Below are positions 49,527 through 51,861 of a stretch of 64,000 nucleotides of DNA, one piece after another. Source of the DNA: Cladophialophora immunda (lineage: Eukaryota; Ascomycota; Eurotiomycetes; Chaetothyriales; Herpotrichiellaceae). Below the pieces are notes generated by a model. The model worked only from the letters and a program-made list of their open reading frames with translations. It was not told where the DNA came from and did not search any database. The translations under genes were made by a program, and so were the position numbers. How positions within the stretch are numbered: the first letter of the stretch is position 1; each line of letters begins with the position of its first letter. Location: assembly GCF_000835495.1 (NCBI RefSeq), contig NW_015622543.1:3014463-3078462 (forward strand), written 5' to 3'.

Positions 49527-50594
49527 TCACTTCCGGTTCAACAGGCTCAGGAACTCCTCTCGTGTTTTGGCACTGCTCCTCATGGCGCCCAGCATGCAGC
49601 TCGTCGTCGTGGAGCTGCTGGTCTTCTGCACGCCTCTCATCACCATGCAAAGATGGCTGCTCTCCATGACGACCGCGACGCCCTGTGGTTTCAGCACTTC
49701 GGCGATCGCCAGCGCGACTTGTTTCGTCAGCCGCTCTTGCACCTGCAATCGGCGCGAGAACATCTCCGCCAACCGAGCCAGCTTGGATAGCCCGAGCACG
49801 CGCCGGTTGGGGATATACCCAATATGCATCTTCCCGATAAACGGCACCATGTGATGTTCGCATAGGCTGAACACTTCGATGTCCTTGACGATCACCAATT
49901 CGTCGTGGTCCTCGTGAAACACTGCCCCGTTGACCAGGTCCCGCACGTTCTCCTCGTAGCCCTTTGTGAAATACATCAGCGCCTTCGCGTATCTCTCCGG
50001 AGTGTCTCGCAGCCCCTCTCGGTCCGGGTCTTCGCCAATACACTCGAATATCGTCCTGACCGCTCCTGCGAGTTTGTCCAGGCGGACCTGTGCCTGTTCC
50101 GGGGTCTGATCGAGGCGTTCGCGGGTGCCGATGCACGGCCAGGAAAGGCCGTCAAAGTCGATGGGTGGATTGAGTGTGTATGGGCTTGCAGGACGCGACA
50201 CCGTCGAGGCAGGAGGGGTGGGCGGCGCTTCGTCTCGCTCGTCTCGAGCCGGGGTGTGTAGTGGGGGAGCCCGTTTCGGGTCGGTCTCCTTTTGCGCACT
50301 CTCTAGGCCCAGCCATGATGTCCCGCTCGGCATGGTGGCTTGCGACGCCGTTTGAGCTTCGGCCGTGAGGTCTATGGTTCTCCGGCGGCCGTACGTGGCT
50401 TTGATGGAAGAAGCGAGGTTCTCTCGTTCCTGCGCGCGAGTGGTCGTCGTCTGGGAACGGTGCAGAGGGGAAGAACCATTCAACAAGTACGAAGGGACGG
50501 CGGAGCGAGGTTTTGGGTGCAAGGGCGCGGGAGGAGGGACGCTGTTGCCGTGGTCTAGAGAAGGGGGTTTCGGCGTAGGGTTACTTTGACTCAT
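49527..50594 (-). CDS. GTP cyclohydrolase I
   Basis: Single exon, 355 residues, ATG 50594. Catalyses GTP to 7,8-dihydroneopterin triphosphate, the first step of folate/pterin synthesis (yeast Fol2). The C-terminal 200 residues are the classical enzyme: [20 protein letters not shown], the zinc/active-site segment [40 protein letters not shown], and the second zinc cysteine in [13 protein letters not shown]. The first 150 residues are a disordered Ser/Pro-rich extension, as is usual in fungi. The mature enzyme would be a homodecamer in the cytosol. Confidence 0.96.
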
Positions 50595-50938
50595 GGCGGG
50601 GGAAGGGCGAGGGCAGGGTGCAGGGTGAGATTTATGGCAGAGGCATGGTCTTTCGACCAGGAGAACACCGAACGGGATTCTAGCTCCAACACAGGATGTG
50701 ACGGTCAGGACTATATGTAGGCAGGCAAAAGGTATTACCGTGCTGGTTTGGGTTTTTGTATCTTCGTCGCCGAATTATGGTCGCTGTGAGGACATGTCGG
50801 AGGAGGGAGTCGGAATCTTTTTTTTCGTCCTGCGCCCTTGCAGCCGGCGCCAGCCAATCGGAGGACGCCGTGCGTGATCCGGGCGCCAAGCCCAGAAAAG
50901 ACCACGGCTTGGCATCAACCACGGTCCTCCTTTTCAAC
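50595..50938. other. Divergent promoter between GTP cyclohydrolase and U2
   Basis: No gene. It ends in the TATA element of the U2 gene. Confidence 0.5.
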
Positions 50939-50946
50939 TATATAAA
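50939..50946 (+). promoter_or_regulatory. TATA box of the U2 snRNA gene
   Basis: TATATAAA about 50-58 bp before the inferred U2 5' end, followed by a pyrimidine-rich tract. This suits an snRNA-type RNA polymerase II promoter. Confidence 0.6.
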
Positions 50947-50996
50947 CCTCGATCCCTCTCTCCTTCTTTTCCTTCTCTTTCTTCTTTTTCCTTTCC

Positions 50997-51216
50997 TCAG
51001 CTCTGTGAGTCCCACCCCTCCTCACCCCCCTACATTTGATCTCTTGCTGACTGTTGTTTCCCAGCTTTGCCAACTGGCTTAGATCAAGTGTAGTATCTGT
51101 TCTTTTCAGTTTAATCTCTGAAATGACACCACGTGTGTCTGACTTTGATTAAATTTATTTTTGCACGCCGCTCGAGACTCTCTGTGCTTGCACGGAGCAT
51201 CTCGAGCACCGTGTCC
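50997..51216 (+). ncRNA. U2: U2 spliceosomal snRNA, apparently interrupted by an intron near its 5' end
   Basis: Bases 51076-51126 match the most conserved part of U2 almost letter for letter: GGCTTAGATCAAGTG, the branch-point-pairing GTAGTATCTG, then TTCTTTTCAG and the stem-loop II continuation. Stem-loop I is GCC-AACT-GGC. An Sm site (ATTTTTG) lies near 51157-51163. It is followed by a long terminal hairpin with GCTCGAGA...TCTCGAGC arms. The 5' end is unusual. Directly upstream of CTTTGCC (51065) lies a perfect intron-like block, 51005-51064: GTGAGT donor, TGCTGAC branch point and CCCAG acceptor. Removing it joins TCAGCTCT to CTTTGCC, restoring TCTCTTTGCC, the 5' sequence yeast-type U2 is known to have. 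Without splicing that segment is lost. The ends (about 50997 and 51216) are inferred. Identity as U2 is near certain. The intron is a strong inference. Confidence 0.93.
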
Positions 51217-51829
51217 GAGGCCTCACACTGCCGCCTTGTGACGCGAACAAAACCCCTTTTCATCATGGATTCCTTTGCCTTGCGCAAAGCCTTGGAGAAG
51301 AGTTGGATCTGTTTATAAGCCATGTTGTGTGCCCAGAGTCACTCGAGAGTGAAACTGCGCCTTGAAAGACTGGCTTGCCACGACATCTGCCCCCATTGCT
51401 CTCTGATGTTCTCACTGCCAGGCTACCAAGTTCACCCTTTCTTCACCGCTCCTCCACCCTCACGCCCACCGGACCTCACGCGACTGCTGCCTGTTTGTAG
51501 GCACGCGGCGGTGAGTGACGGGCGCCTGCTCTCAAGCTTCAAAACGATTTGTTGAGTCTTTTCGAGTCCATAGCGCTATGTCCATCATGAAGCGAGAAGT
51601 CAAAATCTCTGGATTCCACACGAGGACCATGGTACCGCAGTTTCTTGGAATGCAGCCTATCCCCTACACTACACTACTCATAATCATCTTCGCAACGAAA
51701 CAAGGCTGCTCGTCCGTCGGGTTGGCTTCCAGAGGCGCGTCGACGCACCACCTCGCCTCTTGCCCGTCTTCCAAGTGACCTGCTCCCGCAAAAAGAATGT
51801 GCGGGCCTCCTCTTACTGCTACTGCTTGG

Positions 51830-51861
<32 letters not shown>

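Follow-up and report, generated by a model that had tools for sequence, protein, structure and literature searches.

Interrupted U2 and U1 snRNA genes in Cladophialophora immunda: a proposed spliceosomal intron after a 6-nt first exon of U2

The U2 snRNA gene in the window (i.e., the whole 64,000-nt stretch of DNA analysed here) was evaluated together with the spliceosomal RNA genes found elsewhere in the genome of Cladophialophora immunda. This gene, termed U2a, is very probably a working RNA polymerase II gene with its start at about 50999 and, following an exon of 6 nt, a U2-type spliceosomal intron at 51005-51064. The second U2 gene of the genome, termed U2b, appears to be interrupted likewise. 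Neither of the U2 genes found lacks introns; hence, the formation of U2 would depend on U2 itself. The finding is larger than the single interrupted gene proposed in an earlier reading of the letters of the window (the sequence-only reading), as the second U2 gene and two interrupted U1 genes were located outside the window. The features of U2a are given below.

50941..50946, plus strand: TATA box TATAAA, its first base 58 nt 5' of the proposed +1
50999-51245, plus strand: U2a snRNA gene on contig C3, 3' end approximate (the Rfam match extends to 51252)
50999..51004, plus strand: exon 1 of U2a, AGCTCT, 6 nt, predicted to be adjacent to the cap, the same in U2b, able to pair with the 3' tail of U6
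51005..51064, plus strand: proposed spliceosomal intron of U2a, 60 nt, with a GTGAGT donor, a TGCTGAC branch site at 51045-51051 and a CAG acceptor at 51062-51064
51065..51245, plus strand: exon 2 of U2a, the remaining U2 body (Rfam RF00004), 3' end approximate
51255..51302, plus strand: element 3' of the gene, TTTTCATCA ... TGGAGAAGA, containing a small hairpin, from the alignment of five U1/U2 genes

In the surroundings of U2a, a GTP cyclohydrolase I gene was observed in divergent orientation at 49527-50594 on the minus strand, approximately 400 nt upstream of the U2a start, with 95% identity to its counterpart in Fonsecaea multimorphosa. A short GGTGTC tandem run was observed downstream of U2a, at about 51831-51860.

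The U2 body recognised at this locus by the sequence-only reading was clearly borne out, as the region 51058-51252 scored 132.1 bits against the Rfam U2 model RF00004 (E value of 1.2e-26), for which the gathering score is 46. CTTTGCC...GATCAAGTGTAGTATCTGTT was read directly 3' of the intron, and the GTAGTA branch-recognition sequence and an Sm-like ATTTTTG were also read directly in the gene. Stem-loops IIa, IIb, III and IV were present in the covariance alignment, and the pairs of stems IIb and III were counted as well. The Rfam comparison of the unspliced form, which had been proposed as a check, agreed with the U2 identity; its 5' end was aligned without a gap. The first positions of the model were occupied by the last bases of the proposed intron, which agreed weakly with the model. 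The elements of the 60-nt intron that had been pointed out earlier, namely, GTGAGT, TGCTGAC and CAG, were all read in place, and the paralog has an intron at the same site. The branch A is at 51050, i.e., 14 nt before the acceptor. The insertion therefore has the composition of a U2-type intron, with a GTRAGT donor, a CTRAY sequence near the 3' end, a YAG acceptor and a host-like length. The two mRNA introns mapped in the HAT2-like gene of the window were 56 and 52 nt long; the six snRNA introns proposed in this work are 52-63 nt long, and in each of them a CTRAY branch site precedes the acceptor by 10-14 nt. A HAT2-like protein of the window showed 99% identity to one of C. immunda, a species of the Herpotrichiellaceae (Chaetothyriales). 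Joining 51004 to 51065 yields AGCTCTCTTTGCC, and the predicted spliced product reads AGCTCT^CTTTGCCAACTGGCTTAGATCAAG.

The position of the first nucleotide was evaluated according to the promoter. A50999 is likely to be the first nucleotide of U2a because the TATA spacing is 58 nt and a C-A initiator is found there. With the start at the A of CTCA, exon 1 would probably have 6 nt, and the exon of about 8 nt that was assumed earlier should be shortened. TATAAA was located 58 nt before the first nucleotide in both U2a and the intronless U1 gene (L010), and the start of the latter, AUACUUACCU, is fixed by function. The exact spacing of 58 nt occurred in two of the five U1/U2 genes, and the boxes of the other three, at 54, 40 and 54, were weaker and no more than TATA-like. 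The start of U2a was deduced from the TATA spacing, which leaves room for the view that U2 forms the 3' exon of a longer transcript begun further 5', in which the intron is real and the mature end is longer or is trimmed after splicing. This view shares the intron with the preferred one, so the probabilities of the two overlap. It was considered improbable, as the distance from the TATA box to the A equals that in the intronless U1 gene with its functionally fixed 5' end, and the identity between U2a and U2b drops to 40/100 in the 100 nt just upstream.

Moreover, the block TTTTCATCA...TGGAGAAGA with its small hairpin was present downstream of both U2 genes and all three U1 genes. The mean column identity was 86% for the trimmed core of the five-gene alignment, and a DNA search using one copy of the element recovered three of the five copies, the query counted. 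The presence of this block in all five genes suggests that they are all real transcription units. The element may possibly act as the snRNA 3'-end signal of C. immunda.

The U2 family search covered the 42.2-Mb genome (39 contigs) in a heuristic manner, with 411 candidates, of which 46 were scored, and gave three matches at two loci. The second locus and its proposed introns are listed below.

L004, C8:1133911-1134265, minus strand: U2b, the second U2 gene, approximately 3 kb from the contig end; three introns are proposed
C8:1134204-1134259, minus strand: intron 1 of U2b, 56 nt, at the same site as the U2a intron
C8:1134097-1134151, minus strand: intron 2 of U2b, 55 nt, after ...GTTTAATC
C8:1134037-1134088, minus strand: intron 3 of U2b, 52 nt, after TCTGAAAT

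Upstream of U2b, degenerate CTTCAGCATC-type repeats were observed on the minus strand at about 1400-1700 of L004.

In the genome search, U2b was split into two pieces of 51.3 bits (above the cut-off) and 44.6 bits (below it). As a single stretch, it scored 101.4 bits against the Rfam U2 model, with 57 and 62 nt lying opposite 2 and 13 model positions, respectively. When all three introns were removed, U2b was the same as spliced U2a over the first 67 nt, a stretch that spans all three junctions. The exons of U2a and U2b were identical at 167/184 aligned positions, whereas the identity of intron 1 was 28/56; the interior of the intron had drifted while its signals and the exons were kept, as is typical of a U2-type intron. 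Intron 1 of U2b retained the donor, the acceptor and the branch site (14 nt from the acceptor, as in U2a), and the sequence of exon 1, AGCTCT, was unchanged. Introns 2 and 3 of U2b flank an internal exon of 8 nt. In comparison with the uninterrupted copy, intron 2 starts with GT and ends with AG, and its placement is fixed; its AAG end is rarer than CAG or TAG. The placement of intron 3 can be shifted by one base.

The base pairs of the two U2 genes were compared in hand-picked helices. One pair of stem IIb was altered on both sides between the genes, from A-U to U-A, and one pair of stem III was also altered on both sides. Stem III of U2b had three non-standard pairs in these helices and that of U2a had none, and a weakening of U2b is possible on this account. 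U2b thus appears to be under constraint yet imperfect. The sequence-only reading had envisaged a second, intact U2 locus with the present one silent; a second locus was indeed found, but it carries the same intron and two more. No intronless U2 was found in the genome by the U2 family search and the DNA searches with both U2 genes, all of which led to the two loci only. The intron-bearing copies might nevertheless be decaying pseudogenes, with the RNA being supplied by an intact U2 that escaped detection. The heuristic nature of the genome search, a possibly incomplete assembly (U4 was not found at all) and the non-standard pairs of U2b stem III speak for such a situation, in which the introns may still be real, and its probability therefore overlaps with that of the preferred reading. 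It was considered very unlikely, given that the predicted spliced products of two diverged genes are identical over 67 nt, that two pairs (one in each of stems IIb and III) changed on both sides, that the promoter and the downstream element were retained, and that one family search and two DNA searches reached no locus other than U2a and U2b.

The ability of the U2 5' end to pair with U6 in the U2/U6 helix II was explored with and without splicing. The genome had one U6 match, which was full-length according to Rfam and uninterrupted. The spliced U2 end AGCUCUCUUUG formed 10/11 pairs with the U6 tail CAAAGAGUGCU, with one U-U mismatch and an energy of -12.3 kcal/mol, whereas the unspliced ends of U2a and U2b each formed 6/11 pairs at -3.3 kcal/mol. 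Hence, a 5' end capable of helix II with U6 is predicted after splicing, in line with the earlier claim that splicing restores the start of U2. When the whole U6 tail and 13 nt of U2 were used, the values were -12.7 kcal/mol for the spliced end and -6.0 (U2a) and -3.7 kcal/mol for the unspliced ends. Among all the hexamers that could replace exon 1, 19/4096 reached at least 10 Watson-Crick pairs with U6, and 176/4096 reached 10 pairs when G-U was counted. Five GT sites from 50906 to 51064 were tested, and the predicted donor came first with 10 pairs; the alternative GT at 50924 would yield 9/11 Watson-Crick pairs. The U6 complementarity alone was not decisive because of the U-U mismatch, the 9/11 pairs of the GT at 50924 and the value of -6.0 kcal/mol for unspliced U2a.

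The probability that the intron signals arose by chance was estimated using shuffled sequences. A donor-branch-acceptor stretch abutting CTTTGCC occurred in 7/20000 dinucleotide shuffles of 50931-51064. TCT before a GTRAGT donor, with the acceptor end abutting CTTTGCC and the branch site not required, occurred in 1/20000 shuffles of the same region. The bare donor-branch-acceptor motif was found three times on the plus strand and four times on the minus strand of the window, and its mean count per shuffled strand was 2.05 (range 0-6, 20 shuffles). The density of the motif was rejected as proof of an intron, as the window count was within the shuffle range. The bare motif is not rare; hence, the case for the intron rests on its position, the paralog and the U6 complementarity. 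The very short, cap-proximal exon of 6 nt was counted against the intron. An intronless U2 with its start shortly before CTTTGCC (at about 51055-51064) and with CCCAGCTTTGCC retained, 50999-51064 then being an intron-like promoter or leader, is very unlikely even with the ungapped Rfam alignment of the genomic U2a 5' end and the common bare motif in its favour, since the TATA box would be approximately 114-123 nt from the start as against 58 nt in the intronless U1, the unspliced ends of both U2 genes lose most of the helix II pairing, and U2b retains the donor, branch site and acceptor.

The U1 genes were examined via a U1 family search of the genome, in which 41 of 807 candidates were scored and three matches were obtained (L009, L010 and L011). 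Their scores, as a set, were 43.6, 40.3 and 29.1 bits, all below the Rfam cut-off of 69.5. The uninterrupted copy was among these, indicating that the low scores did not come from the introns alone. L010 is uninterrupted and reads ATACTTACCTTG. The proposed introns of the other two copies are as follows.

L009 1624-1686, minus strand: proposed intron of U1, 63 nt, splitting ATACTT^ACCTTG
L011 1641-1697, minus strand: proposed intron of U1, 57 nt, splitting ATACTT^ACCTTG

Relative to the uninterrupted copy, both insertions start with GT and end with AG, and their placement is fixed. They have GTGCGT or GTACGT donors, a CTRAC branch site and a TAG end. The split site (AUACUU^ACCU) is within the sequence that pairs with the 5' splice site, after nucleotide 6, and this position is common to U1 (L009 and L011) and both U2 genes. 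Between L009 and L011, the identity was 115/130 aligned positions for the exons, 31/55 for the introns and 42/77 for the upstream regions. The three U1 genes had diverged, and the uninterrupted L010 was the most diverged by eye in the alignment.

Among the other spliceosomal RNAs, U5 had one full-length Rfam match in the genome. U4 was not found by the Rfam family search of the genome, and the control searches were likewise without a match. Four U4 patterns, based in part on general U4 features and in part on the C. immunda U6, were also used. Pattern 1 gave 2 matches (1 for the reversed-pattern control) and pattern 2 gave 8, exceeding its control (0); all 10 loci were read, with no Rfam match. 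Pattern 3 gave 4 matches (control 3), one of which was the U6 gene, and 3/4 loci were read and scanned, with one weak, unrelated match. Pattern 4 gave 64 matches (control 102), of which 30/64 were taken as loci and keyword-filtered; 10/30 were scanned with Rfam and none matched. U4 is accordingly regarded as undetected rather than absent, and a diverged or interrupted U4 is possible, though unsupported. The U2 of a fungal relative was searched for with exact U2 patterns, which gave 0 stretches in viral contigs; in genome contigs, one scan gave 0 and another gave 4 stretches on three bacterial-bin contigs. The U2 genes on the latter were left out, as they appear to come from contaminating eukaryotes that are probably not close fungal relatives.

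Judging from these sequence features, a pathway for the formation of U2 can be proposed. RNA polymerase II most likely starts at about 50999, and the nascent U2 transcript would receive a cap. The existing spliceosomes would then excise the 60-nt intron of U2a, and its removal would create the functional U2 5' end AGCUCUCUUUGCC..., which forms the U2/U6 helix II. A new U2 snRNP would in this way be made by an existing U2 snRNP, in a self-dependent, positive-feedback step of spliceosome supply. It is probable that all of the U2, together with two of the three U1 genes found, relies on the very spliceosome assembled from these RNAs, that there would be no restart if U2 runs out, and that the arrangement fits an origin by reverse splicing; U1 retains one uninterrupted copy (L010). 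If the transcripts are spliced as predicted, U2, by which branch points are recognised, and two of the three copies found of U1, by which 5' splice sites are recognised, would be made only through splicing. The supply would be an autocatalytic loop that naturally senses the capacity for splicing, and the genes would provide a test of a minimal capped first exon (6 nt) and a minimal internal exon (8 nt).

An old proposal holds that introns get into snRNA genes via reverse splicing. The insertion points observed here are AUACUU^ACCU in U1 and AGCUCU^CUUUG in U2, the latter within helix II, and both would leave capped exons of 6 nt. Because these two sites lie in stretches that contact, and pair with, the substrate or U6, they fit an origin by reverse splicing into the RNAs of the spliceosome itself, which is offered as a suggestion and bears on the old proposal. 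A spread of introner-like elements was not supported because the U2 introns do not recur, the DNA searches with the two U2 genes giving the two U2 loci only, and the six snRNA introns share no word longer than 12 nt.

Rhodotorula hasegawae is a basidiomycete yeast, unlike the ascomycete C. immunda. Its U1 and U5 genes reportedly bear introns too and would then resemble U1 and U2 of C. immunda in having introns in spliceosomal RNA genes; the intron of its U2 is said to lie deeper in the RNA, close to the region of branch recognition. The R. hasegawae U2 gene reportedly contains an intron of the mRNA type (Takahashi et al., 1993, as cited in PMC2586383) and would, like U2 of C. immunda, be a fungal U2 gene with a spliceosomal intron. 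Fungal U3 and U6 introns are well known, the latter as in Schizosaccharomyces pombe (Canzler et al., 2016, as cited in PMC5832005), and U6 is likewise an snRNA gene that needs splicing to yield a splicing RNA. U6 is interrupted in S. pombe, whereas in C. immunda the one U6 found is uninterrupted and U2 and U1 are interrupted. In a survey of U3 in 147 fungal genomes, U3 and U6 are given as the only small structured RNAs known so far to be often interrupted (Canzler et al., 2017, PMC5832005). The fungal U3 snoRNA is likewise a small structured RNA with spliceosomal introns; unlike U2 and U1, it has no part in splicing. Among the matches listed, which comprised titles and abstract starts with the subscription literature mostly outside, none described an intron in the U1 or U2 of a filamentous ascomycete. 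Introns in snRNA genes are already known in fungi, and the U2/U1 case of C. immunda is a new and extreme variant. Furthermore, software that expects uninterrupted snRNAs may mis-start or split such interrupted genes, and in the case of U2a, Rfam put the start of the gene within the intron.
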